Positions 1 to 42,665 of a stretch of DNA of 49,035 nt are shown here, one piece after another (the first letter of the stretch is position 1; every line of letters starts with the position of its first letter). A model generated the notes under the pieces. The model searched no databases, was not told the DNA's origin, and saw only the letters and a list, made by a program, of their open reading frames with translations. The DNA is from Chloroflexota bacterium (GTDB lineage Bacteria; Chloroflexota; Anaerolineae; UBA1429). The translations under genes and the position numbers were made by a program. The stretch lies in the NCBI GenBank assembly GCA_012729455.1, contig JAAYDC010000030.1:1-49035 (forward strand), in the 5' to 3' direction.

Positions 1-546
1 CATCGTACAGTAAAACTGGTGTTTTGTGCTGATAATGAACCAGTCAGCTCGAGTAGGAATGATAGACTGCTTGTTGAAGATGCCCAGAGAGCTAGTATGC
101 TACTCTTTCTATGGAGTATTCCTCCCGGAACTAGAGAAGATGGCACCTTTAGCGAAGAGGCTTTTCAGAGCTGGTATTCTACTGCTATTCAGATCTGTAA
201 GGAATCCAACTATATGGTAGAAGCTATGACTGCGCTTGGAGGTGTTCTTACGTATGTACCAGAAGACCCCTCCGGATTTTGGATCAACAGAGCAGTTGCT
301 TCTGTCCTTGATACGGAGCTTTGCGAAGCTCTATGTAGTAGGTTCATATTCAAAAAACGTAGCTCACTAGGCGTACATTTTGTGGACCCAACAGGTGAAT
401 CTGAACGGGAGCTCGCAAATTACTATAGCGACTTGGCCATTAAAACTCGTGAAGCATCTTTTTTCCGCCTTGCGGTAAAACTCGATTTATTGGCTGAGCA
501 TTTCAGGAGAGAATCTAAAAGAATTCATAAGACGTCTGGTGACTAG
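1..546 (+). CDS. C-terminal part of an unrecognised protein (5' cut by window edge)
   Basis: The frame is open from base 1 to the TAG at 544-546, so this is the last ~180 residues of a longer protein; the GTG at 19 is only an internal codon. The visible part looks mostly alpha-helical and soluble, with no membrane segment or signal. It ends in a basic helix. Around residues 95-130 it carries a WINRAVASVLD stretch and a GVHFVDPTGE stretch, which look like a conserved C-terminal helical domain, but I cannot assign a family or function. Base composition is clearly more AT-rich than in the genes from 643 to 6846, which hints at foreign origin. A strong hairpin terminator follows it directly. Confidence 0.6.
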   Translation, partial: HRTVKLVFCADNEPVSSSRNDRLLVEDAQRASMLLFLWSIPPGTREDGTFSEEAFQSWYSTAIQICKESNYMVEAMTALGGVLTYVPEDPSGFWINRAVASVLDTELCEALCSRFIFKKRSSLGVHFVDPTGESERELANYYSDLAIKTREASFFRLAVKLDLLAEHFRRESKRIHKTSGD

Positions 547-562
547 ATGAAACTGACCTAAA

Positions 563-583
563 GCCGCCCCAATGAGGGGCGGC
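563..583. terminator. Bidirectional hairpin terminator
   Basis: An 8-bp perfect GC stem, GCCGCCCC (563-570) and GGGGCGGC (576-583), closes a 5-nt loop. It lies between two convergent genes, the cut gene ending at 546 and the esterase ending at 643. T-rich tracts on either side are weak, so it would serve both strands with modest efficiency. Confidence 0.65.
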
Positions 584-642
584 CTGCTTGTTTCACCTGT
601 GCAACTGCCGGATGCTGTGCCGCGGCACAGCTGGCGGTGTTG

Positions 643-1659
643 CTAGCGCCACACCGCCCTGAGCCAGGTCCAGGCGCCGGCGCTATAGTAGCGGTGCCCC
701 TCCGGGCCGATCCACAGGCTGCAGCGCTCGGGCACACCGGCGGCGGCATAGATCGCATGGGTGTGCGCAAACTGCTCGCGGGCGGCCTCGATGGGAAAGA
801 TCGGATCGAGCCGGCCATTCAGGAACCTGACATAACGGGGTGCGATCAGGCCCGCCAGGCTGCCCAGTTCGCCCAGAGAGAGGATGTCGGGCACATAATT
901 GCAGTCGCAGTGGTAGATGCTGCCGATGCTATCCGCCAGCGAGCAATAATAGCTGCCCGGCAGGGCAGCCGAGTAGCGCACGTCGCAGGCGGCTGCGAAA
1001 AAGCTGGCTGTGCCGCCCCCCGAGTTGCCGGTGATGGCCACACGGGCGGGGTCGACGCTCTGCTCAGCAAGCGCCCAATCCAGCAGGCGTTCGAGATCCC
1101 AGACCCTCTCGCCGATGACGGTGCGCCCCACGAGCAGGCCCTGCAGGGTGCGCGTGCGGCACGAGTTCAGCGCGCCGGCGGCAATATCAGCGGGTGTGCG
1201 GGTCTCGCCAAAGCCGCGCGCGGTGGGGGCGATCGCCAGGTAGCCCTGACGGGCGGCCTGCACGGCAATGTCGCGCTGCCCCTCGACGCCGGAACGGCGC
1301 TCTTCTTCGTCGGCGTACACGCCGGCATAAATGCCGGGGACGTTGTGGCCGTGGGGGGTCAGCACCAGCGGCAGGCGGCCGGCCGGCAGCGGATCGGGGC
1401 GCAGCAGGTAAAAGGGCAGCGCCAGATCGGGCTCGGTGGTGAGGGTCCAGCGTTCGCGCACGAATCCCTCGCAGACCTCGCGTTCCAGCAGCTCGGCTTG
1501 CGGGGTATGGCTGGCCAGGTCGGCCTCCATGCGCGTGAGCCCGAGGGCAGCCCGCAGCGCCGGGCGCAGGCGTGCTTGCCAGGCGGAGACGCCCGCGGGG
1601 GTGAGGTCATCCAGCGGATAGCGCGGCGTTACGGCGCGGTAGAGGGCGTGGTAGTCCAT
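643..1659 (-). CDS. Alpha/beta-hydrolase esterase (acetylxylan esterase / dienelactone hydrolase-like)
   Basis: A cytosolic alpha/beta-hydrolase of 338 residues. The nucleophile elbow is GNSGGG (Ser in GxSxG) near residue 200. The acid is probably the Asp of NGRLDPIFP and the His lies in GPEGHRYY near the C-terminus, so the whole triad is present. It lacks a signal peptide. An HGHN loop near residue 105 could form the oxyanion hole. The layout fits the large family of acetyl-xylan or acyl-sugar esterases, and the surrounding glycoside hydrolases make removal of acyl groups from imported oligosaccharides the likely role; the substrate is not shown by the sequence. I chose the ATG at 1659 over an upstream in-frame start because AAGGAG sits 9 nt before it. 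It is transcribed alone, with a TGTGCTACAAC promoter-like element just upstream. Confidence 0.8.
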   Translation of the reverse strand: MDYHALYRAVTPRYPLDDLTPAGVSAWQARLRPALRAALGLTRMEADLASHTPQAELLEREVCEGFVRERWTLTTEPDLALPFYLLRPDPLPAGRLPLVLTPHGHNVPGIYAGVYADEEERRSGVEGQRDIAVQAARQGYLAIAPTARGFGETRTPADIAAGALNSCRTRTLQGLLVGRTVIGERVWDLERLLDWALAEQSVDPARVAITGNSGGGTASFFAAACDVRYSAALPGSYYCSLADSIGSIYHCDCNYVPDILSLGELGSLAGLIAPRYVRFLNGRLDPIFPIEAAREQFAHTHAIYAAAGVPERCSLWIGPEGHRYYSAGAWTWLRAVWR

Positions 1660-1687
1660 ATAGATGCTCCTTGACAGAGATTGGCAC

Positions 1688-1699
1688 TGTTGTAGCACA
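1688..1699 (-). promoter_or_regulatory. Candidate extended -10 promoter of the esterase gene
   Basis: On the minus strand this reads TGTGCTACAACA, with TG-TGC-TACAAC as a possible extended -10, about 30 nt upstream of the start codon at 1659. The same 12-mer stands before the next gene at 2305-2316. No convincing -35 is seen. Confidence 0.35.
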
Positions 1700-1785
1700 G
1701 CTGAACACGAATGCCCAGTACGCGGTCTCTGTTGGCCCGCAGCCGGTGCCGCCGCGCCACCGGAGGGCGGCCGTGCACGAGCTGC

Positions 1786-2274
1786 TCAACGGCGCGTGAG
1801 AAGGCAGCCGATGACGATGCCGCAGATCCACAACAGCTCGATAACCGAATCGGCCAGCATGGCGTTCAGGCTCGTGTATTCCATGGATGAGCTCGGAACA
1901 AACGGAATGCCCCAACCCGCCAGGGCAAAGAAGGCAAGCCGTCCGACCATATAAACACTCAGCAGGATGATTGCCAGCGTACGAATCCTGGCCTTGTGCT
2001 TGGGGGCTACCATCACCGCCGCTAACAGAAAGACGCTGGGGATAACCAGCGCCTTTAACACGTCATCAGTCCTACGAACCAGCAAAGATAACAGCATCCA
2101 CCCCCGCTGTGACGGTTTGGTCGTCTTAGACAGGAGGGACCGCACGATTGGATCGACAATCTCTGTCCACCACGCGATCATCTTTTCGATGAACCACACG
2201 GCGGTCACTACAGCCGGCAAGAGGGCGATCCAGCACAGCACGCGGCCGCCCGTTTCGCTGCGGTCCTGAGTCAT
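1786..2274 (-). CDS. Small integral membrane protein, unknown function
   Basis: A 162-residue protein with about four hydrophobic segments: near residues 12-30, 70-90, 95-120 and 135-158. It ends in a basic LLTRR tail. I do not recognise a family. A charged loop of Lys/Arg between the first two segments would be cytoplasmic. I favour the ATG at 2274; a GTG at 2292 in the same frame would add six residues, and neither has a strong ribosome site. It is transcribed in the same direction as the esterase but has its own promoter-like element, so it may be an independent gene. Base composition is a little lower in GC than rtcB upstream. Confidence 0.55.
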   Translation of the reverse strand: MTQDRSETGGRVLCWIALLPAVVTAVWFIEKMIAWWTEIVDPIVRSLLSKTTKPSQRGWMLLSLLVRRTDDVLKALVIPSVFLLAAVMVAPKHKARIRTLAIILLSVYMVGRLAFFALAGWGIPFVPSSSMEYTSLNAMLADSVIELLWICGIVIGCLLTRR

Positions 2275-2304
2275 GCGGGGGTTCCCAAGCACTCTTATGG
2301 GGTG

Positions 2305-2316
2305 TGTTGTAGCACA
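2305..2316 (-). promoter_or_regulatory. Candidate extended -10 promoter of the membrane protein gene
   Basis: The minus strand reads TGTGCTACAACA, identical over 12 bases to the element before the esterase gene at 1688-1699, and about 31 nt before the start at 2274. A CTGACT lies 17 nt upstream of the TGTGCT hexamer and could act as a -35 if that hexamer were the -10. Confidence 0.35.
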
Positions 2317-2331
2317 ACCCGATCACGTTGG

Positions 2332-3726
2332 CTAGTCAGCGCCCTTTAAACTCGCCAGCGGCCAGAGGGTATAGCGCACCGCCGCCAGATCGGCCGCCAG
2401 GATGGCCTCGAGCACCTCGCCGGCGGGCTTGTAGACCGCGTCGGATTCATCCAGCGGCACATCCGCGCCGGCGTTCACCAGCACGCCCGCATGGCGGTAG
2501 CGCTGGTTGACATCGCGCTGCGAGAGGGTGCGCAGGGCCTGCTTGCGCGCCATGCGCCGACCCGCGCCGTGGTTGACGCTGTAGGCGCTGCGGGATGCAT
2601 TGGGGCGCGCATCCAGCACATAGGAATAGTCGCGGTTGGAGCCCGGCACCAGGATCGGGTAGCCCGTATCAGCCCACTGCGTGCCGGCGAGGTCGGGATG
2701 TCCTGCGGGGAAGGCGCGCGTGGCGCCCTTGCGGTGCACCCACACCCTGCCGAACTCGGGGTGGGTCTCGCGCTGCACCAGGTTGTGCGAGATCTCGGCG
2801 ATCAGCTCGAGCTTGCCGCCAAAGGTATCCTCAAAGGCAGCGATGACCTGCTCGGCGATGATCAGGCGGTTGATGGTGGCAAAGTTGCGACCGGCCGCCA
2901 CTGCCGAGAGGTAATCGGCACGCGTGGGAGAATCGGGCGCGAAATAGCCCATATCCAGCTGGCGGATGGCGGGGTTCTCGGCACGGGCACGTTCGAAATA
3001 GTGCTGCGCCAGCCCATGGCCAAAGCCGCGCGAGCCGGTATGGATCTGCACAAACAGGCTTTGGGTCTCTTCGCAGCGCTGCAGCTCGATAAAGTGGTTG
3101 CCGCCCCCGAGCGTCCCCAGCTGGGCGCGCCCGCGGTCGGCGCGGCCCTTGGGCATCTGCCAACTGTCGGCAACCGCGAAATCGCCCCCTTCGGTGCGTT
3201 CCGGGTCAAGGCGCGAGCCGTAGCGGCGCACATATTCGCGCGCTCCGCCGCGCACCAGCGCCTCAAACACGCGCGGCTCCAGCGTGCCCAGCTCCTTGTT
3301 GACGCTGCCGACCCCCATCGCAACCGTGCTCATCACCGCGCGGCTAAAGGCCATCCGCGCCCCGGGGGTGGCGCGCTCGGCGGGAACCTCTGAGCGCAGC
3401 GAGATCATCCCGCAGCCGATATCATAGCCCACCGGCCCCAGCGCGATCGTGCCGGAAGTGAGGATCACACAGCCGACCGGCACGCCATAGCCCTGATGCA
3501 CGTCCGGGGTGATCACCACCAGCTGCACGCCCGGAAAGCGCGTGGCATTGACGATCTGCGGGTAGAGGTCTTCTTCGGCGGCCTCGAGCAGGGCGGGGGT
3601 GAGGAACAGCCTCACCGGCACGCCGCGGGTGTCTTCGGTCGCCAGGGTGTAATAGCCCTCCTCGCGCTGATAGCTCGCGAGCGCTTTCCAGGCGCGATTG
3701 GGCACGCGCGGCGGGGTGGTATCCAT
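2332..3726 (-). CDS. rtcB: RtcB-family RNA ligase (3'-phosphate / 5'-OH RNA joining)
   Basis: RtcB joins RNA 3'-phosphate or 2',3'-cyclic phosphate ends to 5'-OH ends through a GMP-histidine intermediate, using GTP and Mn(II). The 464-residue length is typical. Family motifs follow in order: DVHQGYGVPVG near residue 75, the metal-binding Cys in GYDIGCGM near 100, GTLGGGNHFIE near 205, an SHNLV histidine near 310, and SVNHGAGRRMAR near 385, whose His is the guanylylation site. No archease, RtcA or CRISPR-like neighbour is present, so the physiological RNA (tRNA or mRNA repair) is open. The ATG at 3726 has AGGAGG 5-10 nt upstream and a clear sigma-70 promoter that faces away from the GH18-like gene. 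Confidence 0.95.
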   Translation of the reverse strand: MDTTPPRVPNRAWKALASYQREEGYYTLATEDTRGVPVRLFLTPALLEAAEEDLYPQIVNATRFPGVQLVVITPDVHQGYGVPVGCVILTSGTIALGPVGYDIGCGMISLRSEVPAERATPGARMAFSRAVMSTVAMGVGSVNKELGTLEPRVFEALVRGGAREYVRRYGSRLDPERTEGGDFAVADSWQMPKGRADRGRAQLGTLGGGNHFIELQRCEETQSLFVQIHTGSRGFGHGLAQHYFERARAENPAIRQLDMGYFAPDSPTRADYLSAVAAGRNFATINRLIIAEQVIAAFEDTFGGKLELIAEISHNLVQRETHPEFGRVWVHRKGATRAFPAGHPDLAGTQWADTGYPILVPGSNRDYSYVLDARPNASRSAYSVNHGAGRRMARKQALRTLSQRDVNQRYRHAGVLVNAGADVPLDESDAVYKPAGEVLEAILAADLAAVRYTLWPLASLKGAD

Positions 3727-3751
3727 TGGAGCCTCCTGGGGCGAAAAGGCG

Positions 3752-3781
3752 AGTATAGCGCGCCGCGCTGGGCGGCGTCAA
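3752..3781 (-). promoter_or_regulatory. Sigma-70 type promoter of rtcB
   Basis: On the minus strand TTGACG (3781-3776), an 18-bp spacer and TATACT (3757-3752) form a near-consensus promoter, about 25 nt upstream of the rtcB start. Confidence 0.75.
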
Positions 3782-3794
3782 ATCGGCGTTTGGT

Positions 3795-3823
3795 TTGGCA
3801 AGCGTCTGCGCTGCGCGTACACT
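3795..3823 (+). promoter_or_regulatory. Sigma-70 type promoter of the GH18-like / alpha-galactosidase pair
   Basis: TTGGCA (3795-3800), a 17-bp spacer and TACACT (3818-3823). It is divergent from the rtcB promoter; the two -35 boxes are only 13 bp apart, so the two RNA polymerases could compete. Confidence 0.75.
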
Positions 3824-3852
3824 GGAAGCCAAGACCTCGCGAGGAGAGACTG

Positions 3853-4833
3853 TTGGCGAAACGCCCGCTGCGCTTCGGGCCGGGCGCCAGGATCGTGCTG
3901 TTGGCGATCGTGGTGATAATCGCGTGGGCCTGGATCCCGCAGGGCACGCCGCGTGCCGATTGCGCCGGCACGAGCTATGCTGCCTGGAGCGACGTATCCT
4001 GGAACGCCCAGCCGGTGGAGCGCGTGAGCGTCGCGCACATGGCTTCGGGAGCGCGCGCGCGTCGTCTGACCTACCTCTACCCCTACCTCTCGTACCTGCG
4101 CAAGGACGGCACCTTTAGCCCCAGCTATGACCATGCCGATGCCTTTGTGGCCGAGTTCCGCCGCGCCGATTCGCGCACCAAGCTGCTGGCCTGGGTGGGC
4201 CTGCCGCTGACCAACGATCGGCCGATCGGGGTGCACGGCTGGGTCGACCTGGACGATCCTGCCACGCGCGCGCAGATCGTGGCTTTTGTGGCCGAGCAGG
4301 TGCGCACCGCCGGCTATGACGGCGTGCACCTCAATGCCGAACCGGTGCCCAACCGCAGCGCCGGCTATCTAAAGCTGCTGGAAGAGCTGCGCAGCGAGCT
4401 GGGCCCCAACAAGCTCGTGAGCGTGGCAGTGCCCCATTGGGTGCCCGTGTGGCTGAACGCAATCCCGCCGCTCGAAAATCTGCGCTGGACGAGCGACTAT
4501 TACCAGGCGGTGAGCGAGCGCGCCGACCAGCTGGTGACCATGTCGTACGACAGCCTGATGCCGGTCGGCTGGCTATACCAGGTGTGGATGCGTATCCAGG
4601 TGCGCGGCATTGCGCGGGCGCTGCGGAATTCGCAAAGCGAGCTCTTGATCGGCATCTCTGTCTCGCGCGAGCACACCCGCACGCACAACCCGGCCGCCGA
4701 GAACCTCACCAACGGATTAAAGGGCGTCTGCGCTGCCGACCGACCGCAGGACGTCGACGGCGTGGCGATCTATGCCGACTGGGAATTCGACCCCGCCGAT
4801 CAGGCTGTGTGGGAAGCCTGGCTGAGCAAATAG
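3853..4833 (+). CDS. Exported GH18-like TIM-barrel protein
   Basis: A 326-residue protein with an N-terminal basic patch and a hydrophobic segment (about residues 12-28) that acts as a signal peptide or anchor. The rest resembles a glycoside hydrolase 18-type barrel: a YLYPYLSYLRKDG strand, then GYDGVHLNAEPV near residue 155 in the place of the family's DGxxxDxE signature, and a later MSYDS strand (DxxxM-Y region). The catalytic Glu of the motif is kept but the paired Asp is replaced by Asn, so activity may be altered or lost; alternatively it is a related barrel family. The TTG start at 3853 is chosen because GAGGAGA lies 6 nt upstream and the hydrophobic segment then stands at the N-terminus. 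The alpha-galactosidase follows 18 nt later in the same operon. Confidence 0.7.
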   Translation: MAKRPLRFGPGARIVLLAIVVIIAWAWIPQGTPRADCAGTSYAAWSDVSWNAQPVERVSVAHMASGARARRLTYLYPYLSYLRKDGTFSPSYDHADAFVAEFRRADSRTKLLAWVGLPLTNDRPIGVHGWVDLDDPATRAQIVAFVAEQVRTAGYDGVHLNAEPVPNRSAGYLKLLEELRSELGPNKLVSVAVPHWVPVWLNAIPPLENLRWTSDYYQAVSERADQLVTMSYDSLMPVGWLYQVWMRIQVRGIARALRNSQSELLIGISVSREHTRTHNPAAENLTNGLKGVCAADRPQDVDGVAIYADWEFDPADQAVWEAWLSK

Positions 4834-4851
4834 TTTGCGATAAGGAGCATC

Positions 4852-6846
4852 ATGACCACTGTACCCCTCTCGCCCGACACCACCCCTCAGGATATGGCCC
4901 TCCTGCGCCGCTGGGTGCTGGGCATGCTGACGGACGCGCAGGCCCTGCCGATTGCCTTTAGCCTGGATGGCCGCCCCTGGCACGGCATCCCTGCCGGCTG
5001 GCAGCTCGAGGTGCGCGACGAACGCCTCGACGCGCTCCTGCAGCGGCGCATCTGGAAGGGGCTCGACCCCGAATCGGGCTTGAGCATGACGGTGGAGGCC
5101 ACCTGGTATCAGGATTTCGCCTGTGTCGAATGGCAGGCCAGGTTCACCAACCACGGCGATGCCCCCTCGGCGCTGATCGAGCAGCTCGCGGCGCTGGATG
5201 GCGCCTTTGGCGGGCACAATGCGGTGCTTGAGCACGGTAATGGCGATTATTACGACGCCGCCGGCTATGAGATGGAGTTCACAACGCTCCAGCACCAAGA
5301 GACGCTCACCATCGCCCCGCGCGGCGGACGGCCGTGCGACGGAGCCTTCCCTTATATGCGCCTGATCTACCCCGGATGCGGCCTGACCCTCGCGATCGGC
5401 TGGCCCGGGCAGTGGCAGGCCGAGTTCACCGGCCATACCGAGGGCGCGCGCGTCAGGATCGGGCAGCAGGAGCTGGCCGCCAGCCTGGAGCCGGGCGAGA
5501 CGATCATCACCCCGCGCATCACGCTGCTGGCATGGCAGGGCGAGCGCGAACGCTCTGTCAACCAGTGGCGCAGGTGGTATCTGGCGCACATCCTGCCGCG
5601 TCCGGATGGCCGGCCGATCCCGCCCTGTTGGGTGGGCTGTGCCCCCGGCGACGGCGAGGAATGGACCGCCTCCACCGAGGCCAACCAGCTCGAGTGGCAG
5701 AATCTGCACGCCGAAAAGGGCATGACCTATGACGTGTGGTGGATCGACGCCGGCTGGTACCCCTGCTGGCTGGGCGAGGAGCGCAAGTGGTGGCACACCG
5801 GCCACTGGCGGGAGGATCCCGAGCGCTACCCGCGCGGCTTTCGGCCCGTCAGCGAGAACCTGGCGCGCCGGGGCGCCAAGCTGCTGGTGTGGTTTGAGCC
5901 CGAGCGCGTGCACACCGGCGGCCTGCTCGAGCTCGAGCACCCCGAGTGGCTCCTGCGCGCTGAAGAGGATCCCGATAACGCCCTGCTGAACCTGGGCAAC
6001 CCCGCGGCGCTCAACTGGCTGATCGAGCACGTCTCGGGCATCATCCAGCGCGGCGGGATCGGCATCTACCGCCAGGATTTCAACTTTGCGCCGCTCCCTC
6101 ACTGGCGCGCCGACCGCACCCCCACGCGGCTGGGGATGGCCGAAAACCTGCACGTGCAGGGATACCTCGCCTATTGGGACGCGCTTTTGGCGCGCAATCC
6201 GGGGCTGTGGATCGACTCGTGCTCGTCGGGCGGGCGCCGCAACGACCTGGAGACCATGCGCCGCAGCGTGCCTCTGCATTACAGCGACTGGGGCTATGGC
6301 GACCACGCCGTCAAGCTGGCCTTTCAGCACCGCCTGCACGAGTGGCTGCCCTATTACAAGGAAGCGGCCCTCTCGTGGGACCTCACGGGGCAGCATCGCA
6401 TGGAGAGCCAGGTGGATCCGTTCTCTTACTATTGCGCGATGGGCCCGATGATCTTTTCCTCGATCGACGTGCGCTGCGAGGGGCTGAATGTGGCGCTGCA
6501 CAACCAGCTGCAGGCGGTGTGGCGCAGGGCGGTGCCCTATATCCACATGGGCGATTATTACGCCCTGACCGAGTTCGAAAAGCGCGCCGACCGCTGGCTG
6601 GGCTGGCAGTTCCACAACCCGTGCGACGGCTCCGGCATGCTGCAGGCGATCCGTCTGCAGGAGGCCCCCGAGGCCAGCTGCACGCTCAGGCTGCGCGCGC
6701 TGGATGCGGATGCCGGCTACAGGCTCGAGCAGGCTGAGACGGGCGAGGTGCGCACGATGACGGGCCGGGCGCTGATGGAGACTGGCGTGACGCTCGAGAT
6801 GCCGGCGCGCAGCGGGGCGATCTGGCTGTATCAACGGATGGTGTAG
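4852..6846 (+). CDS. Alpha-galactosidase, glycoside hydrolase family 36
   Basis: Removes terminal alpha-galactose from raffinose-type oligosaccharides or galactomannan pieces. The 664-residue protein has the GH36 order: an N-terminal beta-supersandwich (residues 1-~265), the catalytic barrel, and a short C-terminal beta domain. In the barrel WIDAGWYP, KLLVWFEPERV and the nucleophile Asp in YRQDFNF are clear; the acid/base Asp lies in the SDWGYG strand after SCSSGGRRNDLETM. There is no signal peptide, so it works on imported sugars in the cytosol. AAGGAG sits 4-5 nt before the ATG. The gene ends 17 nt before a long hairpin that is shared with the end of the oxidoreductase gene at 13.1 kb. A second, only distantly similar GH36 lies at 45.3 kb. 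Confidence 0.93.
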   Translation: MTTVPLSPDTTPQDMALLRRWVLGMLTDAQALPIAFSLDGRPWHGIPAGWQLEVRDERLDALLQRRIWKGLDPESGLSMTVEATWYQDFACVEWQARFTNHGDAPSALIEQLAALDGAFGGHNAVLEHGNGDYYDAAGYEMEFTTLQHQETLTIAPRGGRPCDGAFPYMRLIYPGCGLTLAIGWPGQWQAEFTGHTEGARVRIGQQELAASLEPGETIITPRITLLAWQGERERSVNQWRRWYLAHILPRPDGRPIPPCWVGCAPGDGEEWTASTEANQLEWQNLHAEKGMTYDVWWIDAGWYPCWLGEERKWWHTGHWREDPERYPRGFRPVSENLARRGAKLLVWFEPERVHTGGLLELEHPEWLLRAEEDPDNALLNLGNPAALNWLIEHVSGIIQRGGIGIYRQDFNFAPLPHWRADRTPTRLGMAENLHVQGYLAYWDALLARNPGLWIDSCSSGGRRNDLETMRRSVPLHYSDWGYGDHAVKLAFQHRLHEWLPYYKEAALSWDLTGQHRMESQVDPFSYYCAMGPMIFSSIDVRCEGLNVALHNQLQAVWRRAVPYIHMGDYYALTEFEKRADRWLGWQFHNPCDGSGMLQAIRLQEAPEASCTLRLRALDADAGYRLEQAETGEVRTMTGRALMETGVTLEMPARSGAIWLYQRMV

Positions 6847-6862
6847 ACGGGCAGCGGCGCAG

Positions 6863-6895
6863 AACGGGCGGCGAGGGATAACCTCGCTGCCCGTT
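6863..6895. terminator. Hairpin terminator after the alpha-galactosidase gene (left repeat copy)
   Basis: A 14-bp stem, AACGGGCGGCGAGG (6863-6876) and CCTCGCTGCCCGTT (6882-6895) with one G-T pair, closes the loop GATAA. It forms the outer part of the left direct repeat. The matching hairpin at 13029-13059 has the same arms but the loop in reverse-complement orientation. Confidence 0.7.
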
Positions 6896-7011
6896 GTTCC
6901 CATAGCTCGCCGTCAGGCGAACTGCACCACATCCACGACCTTTTTCGTATCCATCGACTCGTTCGCCGCCAGGCCAAAGGCCAGCGATTTCAGCGCGTCG
7001 TGGTAGGGCGA
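6864..7011. repeat. Left copy of a 148-bp direct repeat
   Basis: Bases 6899-7011 match 13064-13176 exactly over 113 bp. Further left the match continues through the hairpin arms to 6864/13029 with differences only in the loop and at 6888 and 6898. The shared sequence is the end of the Gfo/Idh/MocA oxidoreductase gene and its terminator. The offset between copies is 6165 bp, so the repeats bracket the lower-GC block at 7012-13028. Confidence 0.95.
6913..7011 (-). pseudogene. 3' fragment of the Gfo/Idh/MocA oxidoreductase gene
   Basis: The minus strand carries the last 32 codons and the TGA stop of the oxidoreductase found whole at 13078-14121, with identical sequence. The reading frame is cut at 7011, where sequence unrelated to the gene begins. 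There is no start or promoter, so it is a duplicated remnant and not expressed as a protein. It marks the left edge of the inserted block. Confidence 0.9.
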
Positions 7012-7187
7012 TCTGTGCTCAGGTATTGGTCGAGTTCGTTGCAGCATTTACGTTAACGGCCCAGCCGCTCAAGAATCGGGCTGCTATTCATCGAACTGAG
7101 TTTCTGCGAGATCGGTGCCCGGCTAACTATTGCAGCGCGTGGTGCAAACACTGCGGACGGGTCAATATCCTCTGACTCGCTGTTTAC
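7012..7187. other. Spacer with no recognised feature
   Basis: About 175 nt between the left repeat and the end of the CotH gene. I see no reading frame with coding character, no clear hairpin terminator and no tRNA fragment. The true left junction of the block is at 7011/7012. Confidence 0.5.
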
Positions 7188-9071
7188 TCACGGTTTTCTG
7201 CGATACTGCTTTGCGAAAAGAAGCGCAATGATCAAAACTGCAAAGCATATGCCATATGTGGTGAGATTCCTTGTCAAAGTAAAGGGTGAACCAATGTAAC
7301 CCAAGTCCATTGCTGACGGATCAAAGCTCCCGGGCATCATCCTGCTTGGCTGAGCACTATCAGTTGCAGATTCATCGCCCTCTCTTGATTCCGAGAACAG
7401 GAGTACGGCTGCTTCAGCGTCAGATTTGGGAGTACCTGTCACTTTATTATCGCCTTCTGCTCCGACGTCAGAAGGACTTGGCCAATTTGGACTTGGGCCA
7501 TCGAAGTTAAAACCACCGCCCATCTTCATCCTGCCCATTACGCCGAGATCAAGCGGTGAAGCATCAACAAGTGCATCGGAATAGCGCTGTTCGCTGGCAA
7601 TTGAGGGAATTGTGCCGTCCAACTGCCCACTGATGGACTGGCCGCGCAGCGTCACAACTCTGTAAAGCATTTCGACCGCCGCAGTGTATTCTTCATAGGT
7701 ATAGAACGCGGTTGGGTCAGTTTCCACCAGGCTGTCAATCTGGCTACGAGTCCTTGAGTAGAATTCATCAAAGCCGCCGCCGTTAATATACTCGTCTACA
7801 AGCTGTTGGAGGTAGGCGTGGTACTGCGCCTTGTACTCTTCGTTTTCCATCAGGGTATCAAAGAACCTGGTTCCAGAGAAAGCGCCATCGATGGGATCGT
7901 TTACCGTGCTTGTAGCATCCTGATTGCTGCCCATACCGCCGAGAGCAAGGTTATAGTCCCACGGTAGAATGTTTAATTGCCCGTCATATTCATACAGGTA
8001 ATAGTTGTGCGCCATATTACCAGAAAGACTGTCTTCATTGACGGAGAACACATGGACAGCCATGTATTTGAGCAGGTTGTCGACATCCATGTACTCATCC
8101 AGGTTCGTACCCTCAGAGATGTTTTTGAGCGCCTCCACTACTCGCTTGTGGTCGCTACTGGAAGTGCTGATAACCTCGCTTTCCCAGATAGAAGAGTAGC
8201 TATCAAGGTCATCGTCGATGTAACTCAGACTCGCTCCACGGTCACCCATGGAAAAACCGCCGCGGATATTCGAAACATTCAAGTCTCCTATATCGGGTCT
8301 GCCCTCAGAGCCAGGGGCTATATCGGGCCTGCGCGATTCGCCGCTAATAGGAGAGCCTTCAAAGGGATCGCCGCTGGGAGGTGCCATCCCTCTGGGCTGA
8401 GGCGGCTCAAAGCCCTTGGGCATATTGCCGCCGATATCCATGCTGTCCGGCTTGTAAAGCATACCGCTCTCCACGCCATAGTTTCGCAGTAAAAAGCTTT
8501 CTTCTACGGCTTCAAGCGCCAGATATATGCCCCAGTATTCATCATTAACTGAGACCTTGGCATAGTTATAAAGGGATGCATCTACACCAAGATACTGGTA
8601 CATGTCAAAGATAAGCGCCTCTTTCATATTTGTGGCGTCTGCATAGTTGTTATTCAGGACCAGCTTGTCCAGACCAAAACAAGTTTGGCCTTTCACGAAC
8701 TGATCAAATTCCAGCTTCAGGCTGAAGCGATCCGTATCTGGATCGCTTGCAATCGATGCCAGGCTGGTATTGCCCTTGGGACGAATACCTACGCTGTAGA
8801 ACATGTAGCCGTTTATTTCCACATCACACTGGTAGTATTCCTCGGAAGTTGCATTTGCGAGCATGGCGTTCCATTTGTCATCATCCATCATGATATTAAT
8901 GCTGATGGGCTCGCTAGTGTCAAAGAGCGCGGACTCATATTCCATGCTGACGCCCGTGCCTCCTGCTGCGGCCATTAAATCGTCCGAGAAGGCCATGGCA
9001 TAAAGGCACAGGCAGACAGTGATTGCCGTGACTACAGCAACGATTCTCGTGATATGTTTGCTTGCGATCAT
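7188..9071 (-). CDS. CotH-family (secreted/membrane) kinase-like protein
   Basis: CotH proteins are atypical kinases, shown in Bacillus spore coats to phosphorylate coat proteins; the substrate here is unknown. This 627-residue protein has a signal or anchor helix at residues 8-28 and a C-terminal helix near 600-620 followed by a basic tail, so the bulk is outside the membrane. Core motifs are IRPKGNTS near residue 97, LDKLVLNNNYAD near 135, and the EDS-GN-HNYYLYEYDG and ILPWDYNLALGG segments near 345-375, where the metal- and ATP-binding Asp/Asn residues lie. A Pro/Gly/Arg-rich insert at about 210-270 interrupts the domain. It is the last gene of the VTC-DUF4956-CotH operon, 15 nt after DUF4956. 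The gene arrangement is a recurring one in Clostridia. Confidence 0.88.
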   Translation of the reverse strand: MIASKHITRIVAVVTAITVCLCLYAMAFSDDLMAAAGGTGVSMEYESALFDTSEPISINIMMDDDKWNAMLANATSEEYYQCDVEINGYMFYSVGIRPKGNTSLASIASDPDTDRFSLKLEFDQFVKGQTCFGLDKLVLNNNYADATNMKEALIFDMYQYLGVDASLYNYAKVSVNDEYWGIYLALEAVEESFLLRNYGVESGMLYKPDSMDIGGNMPKGFEPPQPRGMAPPSGDPFEGSPISGESRRPDIAPGSEGRPDIGDLNVSNIRGGFSMGDRGASLSYIDDDLDSYSSIWESEVISTSSSDHKRVVEALKNISEGTNLDEYMDVDNLLKYMAVHVFSVNEDSLSGNMAHNYYLYEYDGQLNILPWDYNLALGGMGSNQDATSTVNDPIDGAFSGTRFFDTLMENEEYKAQYHAYLQQLVDEYINGGGFDEFYSRTRSQIDSLVETDPTAFYTYEEYTAAVEMLYRVVTLRGQSISGQLDGTIPSIASEQRYSDALVDASPLDLGVMGRMKMGGGFNFDGPSPNWPSPSDVGAEGDNKVTGTPKSDAEAAVLLFSESREGDESATDSAQPSRMMPGSFDPSAMDLGYIGSPFTLTRNLTTYGICFAVLIIALLFAKQYRRKP

Positions 9072-9086
9072 GCTCCGCTGCCTTAT

Positions 9087-9758
9087 TCAGGACATGTACT
9101 CGCCGTTATAGCTGACGAGAGTTGCGTTTTCCACGCCCTCTATGTCATTGATGCGGTTGATGAAAGAAGTGGTGGCGTCCTTGGTACGAAGCTCGGTAGT
9201 AAGTTCAATGCCGGCCGCATTGACGGTCTTGGATTTGACAACATAGTGTTCCACGGACTTTTTCAGAAGGCTCAAAGCAGATTCCTCGCTGGCTTCATCT
9301 GTGCAGTTCAACACAAGAATGTACGGGCTATTATGAAGCTTGCGATTGGCAAAAAAGAGAAGGATCAGGCCAATGATAACCGAGCCGATGATGGCAAGAG
9401 GAATCATGCCTGCGCCGACTACGATGCCGCCCGCCAGCGCCCAGAACAGGAATACGATCTCCATCGGTTCCTTGATGGCTGCGCGAAAGCGGACGATGGA
9501 CAGTGCACCGACCATACCGAGCGAGAGTACTACGTTGGAGGTGACGGCCATGATGACAAGTGTGGTCACAAGAGAAAGTCCAACCAGCGTAAGCGAAAAG
9601 CCGTTGGAATACATGACACCATAAAAGGTTTTTTTATAGATGATATAGATAAACAACCCGATTAATAGAGAAACGAGCATGGCTATCAGGACATCGGTCA
9701 CGGAGAACTCGGTCACGCTCTCCAGAAAGCTGGATTTAAAGATATCATTGAAATTCAT
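9087..9758 (-). CDS. DUF4956 membrane protein
   Basis: A 223-residue protein with four hydrophobic segments (about residues 18-42, 50-72, 76-95 and 105-130) and a soluble C-terminal part of about 90 residues with a ferredoxin-like alternation of strands and helices. The segment VGALSIVRFRAAIKEPMEI is the family's most conserved stretch. DUF4956 proteins have no proven activity; they nearly always stand next to VTC-domain and CotH genes, as here. GGGAGG lies 8 nt before the ATG and the spacer from the VTC gene is only 23 nt, so the three genes form one transcript. It may hold the polymerase at the membrane or form the exit path for its product (inference). Confidence 0.88.
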   Translation of the reverse strand: MNFNDIFKSSFLESVTEFSVTDVLIAMLVSLLIGLFIYIIYKKTFYGVMYSNGFSLTLVGLSLVTTLVIMAVTSNVVLSLGMVGALSIVRFRAAIKEPMEIVFLFWALAGGIVVGAGMIPLAIIGSVIIGLILLFFANRKLHNSPYILVLNCTDEASEESALSLLKKSVEHYVVKSKTVNAAGIELTTELRTKDATTSFINRINDIEGVENATLVSYNGEYMS

Positions 9759-39170: not shown

Positions 39171-40058
39171 CTAGATATCGACACCCAGCAGGATGCGCAC
39201 CAGGTAGCCGATCCCAAACGACAGTGCCGCCACCCCCAGGCTGACAGCAGCCATCAGCATAAAGCGCTTGCGAAAGTTTATACCCATCGCCACCGAATAG
39301 TAGGCAGTAAAGAGGGCGATGATGATCACCGCCGTTACGAGCATGATGCCCAGTGCCACGAACTTGGGCAGCCCCAGCAAATAGGGCAGGATCAGGAGTG
39401 CCACGGTGATCACATAGGCAATGCCGGTGTAGAGCGCCGCCAGACCGGGGTTCTTTTCGTCCGCCTCAGTTGAGGTAGAGAGGTACTCGGAGGCCGCCAT
39501 CGAGAGCGAGGCAGCGATGCCGGTGATCAGCCCGGAGAGGGCGATCACGCGCGTGTCCTGAAAGGCAAAGGTCAATCCGGCCAGCGCGCCGGTCAGCTCT
39601 ACCAGAGCATCGTTAAGCCCCAGCACCACCGAGCCGGCATAGCGCAGGGCTTCTTCATCCAGCAGATCGAGCAGGGCGGCCTCGTGGCGCTCTTCGTCGG
39701 CCAAAACCTTTTCGGCCTCGGGTACCTCTTCCAGCAGCAGGGCATAGCCCTGCTGAGCGCTGCGTTCGTTGTTTTCCATCAGTCTGGCGCTAAAGGTAAA
39801 GCCGAGGGTGCGCGCCAGGAATGTATACCAGCGCACCTGGTGCTGATTGGGCTGCACCTCGGTGCCGGTGTAGCGCTGCCAGATGCGCTCGTGCTTGGTC
39901 TCTTCATCTGCCAGGCGCTCGAGCACCTCGCGGTTGTGTCCGGGCTTTAGGCGCGCTGCTACGGCGCGATAGATCGCTGCCTCGGTGGCCTCGGTGTGCT
40001 GGAATTTCAGGAGCTGCTCGCGCACGGTGGGCGAGAGCGAACGCTTGGCGCTGTTCAT
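39171..40058 (-). CDS. Ferritin-like domain fused to a VIT1/CCC1 metal transporter domain
   Basis: A 295-residue membrane protein. The N-terminal part (1-~135) is a rubrerythrin-type helical bundle with iron ligands in HTEATEAAIYR near residue 21, ADEETKHERI near 51, NNERSAQQGY near 95 and ADEERHEAAL near 118. The C-terminal part (~140-295) is the VIT1/CCC1 fold with the helix NDALVELTGALAGLTFAF and five membrane helices. Such MbfA-like fusions export iron or manganese out of the cytosol and help peroxide resistance. It overlaps the SGNH gene by 4 bp (ATGA). Confidence 0.92.
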   Translation of the reverse strand: MNSAKRSLSPTVREQLLKFQHTEATEAAIYRAVAARLKPGHNREVLERLADEETKHERIWQRYTGTEVQPNQHQVRWYTFLARTLGFTFSARLMENNERSAQQGYALLLEEVPEAEKVLADEERHEAALLDLLDEEALRYAGSVVLGLNDALVELTGALAGLTFAFQDTRVIALSGLITGIAASLSMAASEYLSTSTEADEKNPGLAALYTGIAYVITVALLILPYLLGLPKFVALGIMLVTAVIIIALFTAYYSVAMGINFRKRFMLMAAVSLGVAALSFGIGYLVRILLGVDI

Positions 40059-40702
40059 GGGCGACCTCCGGTTAGTTCAAGTAGCACAGGCTTGACATAA
40101 CATTCCAGCTGGACGTAGCCGAGAGGGTTGAGGTGCAGATCGTCCTCGCGGTAGTATGCCCCGCGCGCATTGGAGTGCTCGTCCAGGGTCAGGGCGGGGG
40201 TCTCGACCAGACGGATATCGCCAAACTGCGCGGCATAATCGCGCCATAGCTGGTTGAGGGCGCGGATCTCGCCCAACACCTCACGGCGCGAGGGCGATTC
40301 CTTGACGGGGATGATCACGAACTGGATGCCGGGCAGGTCGGCACGCGCCCACTCAAACAGGCGGTGACTGAGCGAGATGACCTCGTACGGCTTGTAACCG
40401 AGCGCCAGATCGTTATCGCCCTCGTAATAGACCAGCACGCTCGGACGCAGGGGATATACCAAGCGGGGATAGTAGTAGAGCGCTTCGTCGGCAGTGGAGC
40501 CGCCAAAGCCCGTGTTGAGGGCGCGCAGCGGCGCCATCTGCTGCTCAAGCAGGCCATCTTCCCGCCAGCAGACCATCGTCGAGCTGCCGTAAAAGAGGAT
40601 TGCCCCCGGCTCGGGCTGAACCTTTTTCCAGGATGCCTCGAGCGCCTCTACTTCACCAACCAACCGCTGCAGATCAATGCGCGTCGGAATCAGCTCGGGC
40701 AT
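40055..40702 (-). CDS. SGNH/GDSL-type esterase
   Basis: A 215-residue hydrolase with all four blocks: FYGSSTM near residue 37 (Ser nucleophile), NTGFGGST near 64 (Gly), YEGDNDLA near 93 (Asn) and REDDLHLNPLGY near 188 (Asp-x-x-His). No signal peptide. This subgroup includes lipases, acyl-sugar and carbohydrate esterases. ATG 40702 has GAGGAGGG 5 nt before it; an in-frame GTG/ATG slightly upstream lies in a poorer context. Second gene of the thioredoxin operon, 10 nt behind it. Confidence 0.9.
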   Translation of the reverse strand: MPELIPTRIDLQRLVGEVEALEASWKKVQPEPGAILFYGSSTMVCWREDGLLEQQMAPLRALNTGFGGSTADEALYYYPRLVYPLRPSVLVYYEGDNDLALGYKPYEVISLSHRLFEWARADLPGIQFVIIPVKESPSRREVLGEIRALNQLWRDYAAQFGDIRLVETPALTLDEHSNARGAYYREDDLHLNPLGYVQLECYVKPVLLELTGGRP

Positions 40703-40712
40703 AGCGCCCTCC

Positions 40713-42665
40713 TCAGGCAAAAATGGAATAGATCAACCAAACCGCCATCATCACAAAGAATCCCGCCATAATGGTCTTGACCAGCGCGGCATTACGGCGC
40801 ATCCACGCGAGCAGCTGCTGCGAGGTGGTGCCGAAATACACCAGCAGGAACACGGCCACCAACGGAACGATAAACATCAGGTTGTAGAGGATCAACGTCA
40901 GCGCGGCTCTGGTGCGCAGCTCCGGCACACCCAGCACGAACACGATCGTAGGCAGATACACCTGTCCCGTGCAGGCCAGCTCGATCAGCGAGACCACCAG
41001 CCCCAGCCCAAGCGAAGCCGGAATCAGCCAGCGCGAGGTTGTGCCCTCGCGGATCAGCTTGTGGCTGACCTTTTTCAGGCGATCGGGCAGGGTGAGGGAC
41101 ATATCATCGAGCTTGCCCTGGCGCGCCTTGCGGGCATCCTGCAGGCTGCCAACCGCCAGAACCAGGCACAACAGGGCGGTGGCGCCATACAGCCACTTGC
41201 TGATGGCGTTGAGAAAGGGCAGCGCGGTGAGGGCCTTTAACAGGCCAAAACCAACTCCGAGGTAGGTGAGAAACACGCCAAGCGTAAAGGCCGCTCCGCT
41301 CATGAGGAGCGCCTTGCCGGTGCGTTTGCGCACCGCCAGATACGAGAGCAAAAAGATGATCGTGGCAAAGGCGCACGGGTTGACGCCATCCAGCAGCCCG
41401 GCGCCGATGACGGCCAGCAACCCAAAGCTGCGAAAGCGTTCGACGATCGAGCTGGTAGCCGCGGCCTCGTCGTAGCCGGCCCACGGCTCAGGCGCGCCGC
41501 TCTCGAGATAAGGCTGCAGCATGGCCTGGATGCCCGGCGCGCGCACATCTTCGCCCAGCAGGTAGCTATCGCCGATGAACAGGGCCGGCGCCGTCATGCG
41601 GCGCGCTTCGGGCACGCCGGAACGCTCCGATAGATAGGTGTTCAGCGGTCCGCCCTCGGCGATGTTGATGCGCCGCAGCACTAGCTGCGGGTATTTCTGT
41701 TGGATATAGGCCAGGTCCCGTTCGGCGCGCTCGCATACGTCGCAGCCATCCTGGAAAAAGTAGGCGGCATGGATTGGCGCAGCCGGGCCAACCTCGGCAG
41801 CGGGCGTGTCGCTGAGGGCTGATGGGATCTCGCCGGTAAAGACGGGCGCCAAGGTGTTATCCAGCCGGTCGGCCAGCGGATAGGGCCACACCTCGCCGGC
41901 CTGCAAAAAGGCGTCGATCAAGCCGTCTAGGTTTTCGCGCGGCGACTCGGCGCCGATCATGATGCGGTCGCCCACAACGGTCATGGGTACATACCAGGCA
42001 TCCTGCTGGACGCCCGCCAGCGTCATAAAGTCGTGCCAAAAGTCGTTGCCGGGCTCGTGAGTCACATCAATCACGCGCACCTGCAGCTTGTCGCCATATT
42101 TGGCCATGATCGGCGGCAGCACCTCGGTCATCATCTCATGGCAGTGTGAGCAGGTGGGTGAGTAAAACAGCAGCAGATTGACCGGCGATGTGGTAGTAAC
42201 CCCGCCGCCGCTGGCGATGGGCGTGGCAGCAGCCGTTGGGCTGTCGCTTGGCAGCGGCGTCACCGCCGCCAGGGAGACGCCCTGGTCAGCGTATTCGGCG
42301 ATGCGCGTCTTGAGCGCAGCGCGGATCTCGGCCTCGCCGGAGAGGGCATAGTCACCGATAAAGATCTCGGGGATGCCGCCGGAAGCCACGCCGTATTGTG
42401 CCTCGAGCGCCAGCAGCATCTCAAAGTTGGCCGTCTCCGTCATGTCGATGCGAACGATCACCAGCCGCTCGCCATATTCGGCCTGCAGGGGCGCCAGGAT
42501 CTCGCGCTGCACCGTATCGCACGACGAACACACCGGGTCGTAGAAATAGTAGAGCTCGATAGCCGGCTTTTGTGCGGCGGCACCCGGCGCGCTCGCCAGT
42601 AACAGCGCTGTCAGGACGAAAGAGAATGCCAACCAGGCGCCAAAACGGCGCAGTTTAGAGACCAT
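40713..42665 (-). CDS. Triple thioredoxin-like protein fused to a DsbD/CcdA-type membrane domain
   Basis: A 650-residue exported membrane protein. After a signal helix (residues ~10-30) come three thioredoxin-fold units, each with a redox pair: CSSC near residue 46, CSHC near 174 and CDVC near 313. A hinge leads to six membrane helices (~415-650) of the DsbD-beta/CcdA type with the paired Cys residues in DGVNPCAF near 435 and LACTGQVYLPT near 568. This domain passes electrons from cytosolic thioredoxin across the membrane, so the three outer units form a relay to extracellular disulfides. Most DsbD-like proteins have one or two such units. First gene of a four-gene operon with a metal exporter. 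Confidence 0.9.
   Translation of the reverse strand: MVSKLRRFGAWLAFSFVLTALLLASAPGAAAQKPAIELYYFYDPVCSSCDTVQREILAPLQAEYGERLVIVRIDMTETANFEMLLALEAQYGVASGGIPEIFIGDYALSGEAEIRAALKTRIAEYADQGVSLAAVTPLPSDSPTAAATPIASGGGVTTTSPVNLLLFYSPTCSHCHEMMTEVLPPIMAKYGDKLQVRVIDVTHEPGNDFWHDFMTLAGVQQDAWYVPMTVVGDRIMIGAESPRENLDGLIDAFLQAGEVWPYPLADRLDNTLAPVFTGEIPSALSDTPAAEVGPAAPIHAAYFFQDGCDVCERAERDLAYIQQKYPQLVLRRINIAEGGPLNTYLSERSGVPEARRMTAPALFIGDSYLLGEDVRAPGIQAMLQPYLESGAPEPWAGYDEAAATSSIVERFRSFGLLAVIGAGLLDGVNPCAFATIIFLLSYLAVRKRTGKALLMSGAAFTLGVFLTYLGVGFGLLKALTALPFLNAISKWLYGATALLCLVLAVGSLQDARKARQGKLDDMSLTLPDRLKKVSHKLIREGTTSRWLIPASLGLGLVVSLIELACTGQVYLPTIVFVLGVPELRTRAALTLILYNLMFIVPLVAVFLLVYFGTTSQQLLAWMRRNAALVKTIMAGFFVMMAVWLIYSIFA

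Follow-up and report, generated by a model that had tools for sequence, protein, structure and literature searches.

It was found that a gene of a Chloroflexota bacterium (Anaerolineae, UBA1429) encodes a protein in which three thioredoxin units are fused in a row to the N-terminal side of a CcdA-type membrane domain. The gene lies in the window, that is, the whole 49,035-nucleotide stretch of contig JAAYDC010000030.1 analysed here, and its parts and neighbours are listed in Table 1. This Trx-Trx-Trx-CcdA protein is a variant of the known CcdA/DsbD kind, and its arrangement is apparently undescribed; no description of the three-unit layout was found among the open-access papers searched. With slightly better than even confidence, I read the protein as a fused multi-armed envelope thiol reductase, in which the membrane cysteines C431 and C565 would feed the membrane-proximal unit (U3) as a fixed exit, and the two distal units (U2 and U1) would be exchangeable output arms.

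Table 1. Features of the reductase gene and its neighbours in the window
Feature	Position	Strand	Basis
Trx-Trx-Trx-CcdA protein CDS	40713..42665	-	ORF, 650 aa + stop; same-layout orthologue L169
Predicted signal peptide / N-terminal membrane anchor, residues 1-31	42573..42665	-	model and sequence
U1, residues 33-128; CSSC at 42519-42530	42282..42569	-	family profile E 2e-30; fold match 1v98
U2, residues 158-258; CSHC at 42141-42152; probably inserted	41892..42194	-	PF00085 over cut-off; fold match 7d6l; grouping with VKOR-fused Trx
U3, membrane-proximal, residues 297-386; CDVC at 41733-41744	41508..41777	-	PF05768 best stretch; membrane-proximal clade; fold match 1v98
CcdA-type membrane domain, residues 413-650, six predicted transmembrane helices	40716..41429	-	models, hhalign, NPC and CTGQ motifs
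Membrane redox Cys431 in DGVNPCAF	41373..41375	-	invariant in 18 aligned relatives
Membrane redox Cys565 in ELACTGQ	40971..40973	-	invariant in 18 aligned relatives
GDSL-like hydrolase gene, downstream, overlapping the reductase gene end	40055..40720	-	PF13472; orthologue adjacent to L169 in G451, 53% identity
Ferritin-like/VIT1 gene, neighbour only, linkage not conserved	39171..40058	-	PF01988

The reading frame is intact from the ATG at 42665 to the stop codon at 40713. An AlphaFold2 model of the full protein, made with 44 aligned sequences, has a mean pLDDT of 84.1, and residues 290-650 modelled on their own give 89.2. The full model begins with a hydrophobic helix at residues 2-24; its confidence is low at 25-31 and again in the linkers, at 137-157 and 281-286. 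The protein has nine cysteines: the CxxC pairs 46/49, 172/175 and 308/311, and the membrane residues 431, 500 and 565. In the predicted structures, each unit has the order b-a-b-a-b-b-a, with its CxxC starting the first helix. A cis-Pro motif occurs at the expected place in each unit sequence (GGIP99, WYVP227 and MTAP360), and P227 and P360 are invariant in 44 sequences. The structure match of U1 is Thermus thermophilus thioredoxin (1v98; Z 11.2, rmsd 2.3 A, 87 aligned residues), that of U2 is Deinococcus radiodurans Trx2 (7d6l; Z 10.8, rmsd 2.3 A, 88 aligned), and that of U3 is again 1v98 (Z 10.3, rmsd 2.0 A, 86 aligned). Pfam finds the Glrx-like family PF05768 in three stretches of the protein and PF00085 (Thioredoxin) in U2. 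By these models, all three units are thioredoxin folds. A sequence-only reading of the window had claimed three such units, each with its own CxxC (CSSC, CSHC and CDVC), and the AlphaFold2 model and the structure matches (Z 10-11) bear this out. That reading had also considered that one unit might be a pseudodomain without a thioredoxin fold; every unit was found to have the fold by prediction, which rules out a single-unit artefact or a pseudodomain. The same three-unit protein (L169; CTSC/CSHC/CDVC) is encoded in a genome of another genus (G451), with identities of 56, 60 and 70% for U1, U2 and U3. Its presence there argues against an assembly artefact.

The membrane domain has six transmembrane helices in both models, by prediction only. 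Its DGxNPCAF and CTGQ motifs are invariant among 18 aligned relatives. When compared by hhalign with a profile of two canonical CcdA sequences, the domain was matched with a probability of 88.8%, and both cysteines were aligned. Thus, the earlier statement that the membrane part keeps both cysteines holds: C431 and C565 align with those of canonical CcdA and are invariant in the 18 relatives. The membrane part of the window protein has no Pfam match; the protein does not match the CcdA family profile PF02683 over the cut-off, and one of the 18 relatives matches that profile at E 1.4e-4. Since the profile is unmatched but the hhalign probability is high, the domain is named CcdA-type and not a PF02683 member; judged from its sequence, it is a divergent CcdA type. 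No experimental CcdA structure was among the structure matches listed, which were filled by thioredoxins and are not evidence against the fold, and a sequence-profile search for such a structure gave no match. C500 was invariant in the first eight sequences but is lost in wider relatives, and was rejected as a conserved redox site. The loop charges suggest that the N-terminal units are outside the cell.

The protein resembles CcdA in its six helices, in the paired cysteines in helix 1 and helix 4, and in having an outer thioredoxin acceptor. It differs in that CcdA stands alone and has separate thioredoxin partners, whereas three units are fused N-terminally here, and in that its membrane sequence is too divergent for the Pfam DsbD_TM family. 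With DsbD and ScsB it shares the fusion of a membrane electron transporter to redox domains on the outside. In E. coli DsbD, both ends carry an outer domain; the C-terminal one has a thioredoxin fold and the N-terminal one is immunoglobulin-like. The comparison made earlier, that DsbD has one outer unit at each end, is therefore right about the outer domains but not about the fold, which is thioredoxin at the C-terminal end only. DsbD has eight helices, with an Ig-like domain at the N terminus and a thioredoxin domain at the C terminus. In contrast, the outer units of the window protein are all N-terminal thioredoxin folds, and the protein ends in its last helix. The Ig-like nDsbD domain was not found in it by Pfam or in the model, nor was a C-terminal thioredoxin domain in the sequence or the model.

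How widespread is this layout? Relatives were gathered by a phylum search, a class search and a GTDB contig scan; in the class search, 81 of 396 genomes were matched at E < 1e-30. The 119 distinct CcdA fusions examined comprise ten one-unit, 86 two-unit and 23 three-unit proteins, although 23/119 is not an unbiased frequency because long frames were fetched on purpose, and the first unit of one three-unit form (L162) is cut by the contig end. With 23 three-unit relatives found, the layout is not unique to the window. The three-unit forms occur in several branches of Anaerolineae, all within the window's class. Forms with one or two units are found in Atribacterota, Poribacteria, Latescibacterota and elsewhere as well. 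The unit number changes at least 12 times on a quick membrane-domain tree. Thus, the three-unit forms have been gained or lost more than once. Two-unit relatives also differ in their linkers: 53 of the 86 have exactly two cysteines in the linker before the membrane-proximal unit. This linker has no cysteine in 22 of the 23 three-unit proteins, including that of the window, and in several three-unit relatives it is the first linker that holds a cysteine pair. In Gemmatimonadota, Poribacteria and Eisenbacteria (L080, L088 and L085), a DUF1573 domain is fused to the N terminus of Trx-Trx-CcdA, and a DUF1573-like neighbour family with a CGC motif recurs at the loci of other relatives.

A tree of 143 units (97 columns), whose deep forks are weak, places the membrane-proximal units of the sampled one-, two- and three-unit CcdA fusions in one clade (support 98/91). 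The only membrane-proximal unit outside it is that of L019, a distant long branch. The distal units are mixed in the tree, and one-unit relatives of Atribacterota retain only the membrane-proximal unit. U3 is shown by these unit sequences to be orthologous across the relatives, with the distal units turning over. The nearest match of U1 is the distal unit found in two-unit relatives of the same family, for example that of L165 (43% identity), whose pairwise score is 217 against U1 and 137 against U2. U2 groups with VKOR-fused thioredoxins with a support of 98/94 (31-42% identity). Apart from the L169 orthologue, its best scores are with the thioredoxins of VKOR fusions (173-213) and with a set of units that includes those in the middle of L162, L170 and L171 (178-202). 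Since U1 is nearest to a two-unit distal unit and U2 to VKOR-fused thioredoxins, the simplest reading is that, in the window protein, U2 is the extra unit, having probably been added between U1 and U3. A first alignment had suggested U1 as the added unit, but the unit tree and the pairwise scores point to U2. The order of the distal unit types, as seen in the tree and the scores, differs between lineages.

Two-unit Trx-Trx-CcdA proteins of Anaerolineae (L165 and L113) have an orthologous membrane domain and membrane-proximal unit, and in those of the same family the distal unit corresponds to U1. Unlike the window protein, two-unit forms have no inserted middle unit, and the linker cysteine pair seen in most of them is absent from the window protein. 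The Trx-VKOR fusions of Chloroflexota (L011-L030) have a thioredoxin unit that is among the closest relatives of U2. A 639-residue ORF of another genome (L010 in G072) has three thioredoxin units (CTFC, CPHC and CSSC) strung together and fused to a VKOR domain. In both the Trx-VKOR fusions and L010, the partner is the oxidising VKOR and not CcdA. L010 thus indicates that the stringing of units occurred on both engines. It is possible, though I hold this only tentatively, that one fixed membrane-proximal thioredoxin serves changing distal cassettes of a type common to the oxidising VKOR and the reducing CcdA engines, so that the engine rather than the cassette would determine the redox direction.

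How would electrons flow through such a protein? Electrons from a cytosolic thioredoxin would enter the membrane cysteines C431 and C565, which would pass them to the CDVC pair of U3, the fixed first outer acceptor. U3 would hand them through the flexible linkers to the distal U2 and U1, which may serve different disulfide clients outside the cytoplasm as interchangeable output arms. I infer the direction of flow, the place of U3 as first acceptor, the hub-like hand-over and the separate clients. A cytosolic-type thioredoxin is present in the window genome. Profile searches did not find DsbB in the window genome (a 99.2% complete draft), or VKOR in that genome and 14 other genomes of the family. 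Thus, there is no known quinone-linked oxidase there to drive the oxidative direction. A precedent for several arms is the pneumococcal system, where CcdA1/2 feed separate Etrx1/2 that differ in client preference (PMC3914529). The CcdA1/2-Etrx1/2-MsrAB2 system is similar in that CcdA feeds more than one outer thioredoxin with differing client preference, but Etrx are separate lipoproteins and are not fused.

The sequence-only reading had left the choice between a stepwise relay and three clients. A strict linear relay, from CcdA through U3, U2 and U1 to a client, would have its potentials stepped by the CxxC dipeptides; outer-domain relays are known, such as that of DsbD from beta through gamma to alpha (PMC4460558). 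The dipeptides of CSSC, CSHC and CDVC all differ, and differing potentials are plausible, but the dipeptides vary among relatives even within one unit position. The unit order varies as well, and the middle unit looks inserted in the window's own lineage. Moreover, the middle unit of the three-unit relative L156 (residues 180-274), which lies between CPHC and CQEC units, is still recognisable but has HADF in place of CxxC. Two other relatives (L097 and L101) have a distal unit that keeps the thioredoxin family sequence but has no cysteine. An obligate chain would not tolerate such cysteine-less units, although that of L156 could be a local degeneration rather than a general rule. Taken together, the varied unit order and the L156 unit make an obligate stepwise relay unlikely, and I give the linear scheme a low probability. 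The comparative evidence favours output arms that vary around one fixed exit unit.

The reductase gene is tightly packed on one strand with genes for the GDSL hydrolase, a ferritin-VIT1 protein and a DinB-like protein. The sequence-only reading had proposed an operon with a ferritin-VIT1 exporter, suggesting oxidative-stress or metal-linked control of extracellular thiols. However, the GDSL gene lies between the reductase and VIT1 genes, and VIT1 is unlinked in relatives. In G451, the GDSL gene is the only one of the window neighbours that adjoins the reductase gene. Of the 15 genomes of the family, 12 have a VIT1 orthologue. Wherever a relative has both the reductase and the VIT1 gene, the two lie on different contigs (for example, contig 1 and contig 2 in G476). 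Since VIT1 is located elsewhere in relatives, the link to metal stress is weak. A promoter scan found no candidate upstream of the reductase gene and one weak candidate inside it, and a terminator scan found short, doubtful sites only. It was also considered that the protein is a metalloid or metal detoxification reductase, whose outer units carry out envelope thiol chemistry linked to arsenic or metals. Several relatives adjoin genes for ArsR, an ArsP permease, Thioredoxin_3, a low-molecular-weight ArsC-like phosphatase or ferredoxins. Some ars operons are known to include genes for CcdA and thioredoxin (PMC2963123), and the window has its VIT1 neighbour. Nevertheless, no ars genes exist at the window locus or at that of the closest orthologue, and the VIT1 neighbour is not conserved, so this role appears improbable. 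At one locus of a relative (L172 in G464, 76-9146), two Trx-CcdA fusions, one of two units and the other of one, occur together with a canonical CcdA and a separate thioredoxin, and with an ArsC-like phosphatase and ferredoxin-like and Fe-S proteins. A 4Fe-4S ferredoxin-like protein of 170-200 residues recurs downstream at other loci (L165, L161, L162, L146 and L152).

The window genome has a canonical CcdA gene beside a gene for a ResA-like thioredoxin on another contig, and cytochrome c maturation is thus probably covered there. On contig C15 of the same genome (G000), a second thioredoxin-like match (L177, 82122-82418) adjoins a standard thioredoxin and contains one in-frame TGA, which may mark a pseudogene, a selenocysteine codon or a sequencing error. 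An isomerase-like envelope foldase, whose PDI-like multi-unit arms are reduced by CcdA and reshuffle wrong disulfides, is quite improbable: with the whole model as query, Foldseek ranks multi-thioredoxin proteins of the PDI family highest and U2 is closest to the thioredoxins of VKOR fusions, but the Foldseek matches are domain-level only (TM-score 0.10-0.13 on the query), and with neither DsbB nor VKOR found in the genome, no oxidative folding pathway is evident.

These results indicate that CcdA-type electron transporters can grow by gaining thioredoxin arms. The one-, two- and three-unit forms are a natural series for testing how many clients one membrane reductase serves, and the same series may be used to ask whether one thioredoxin cassette works in both reducing and oxidising settings.
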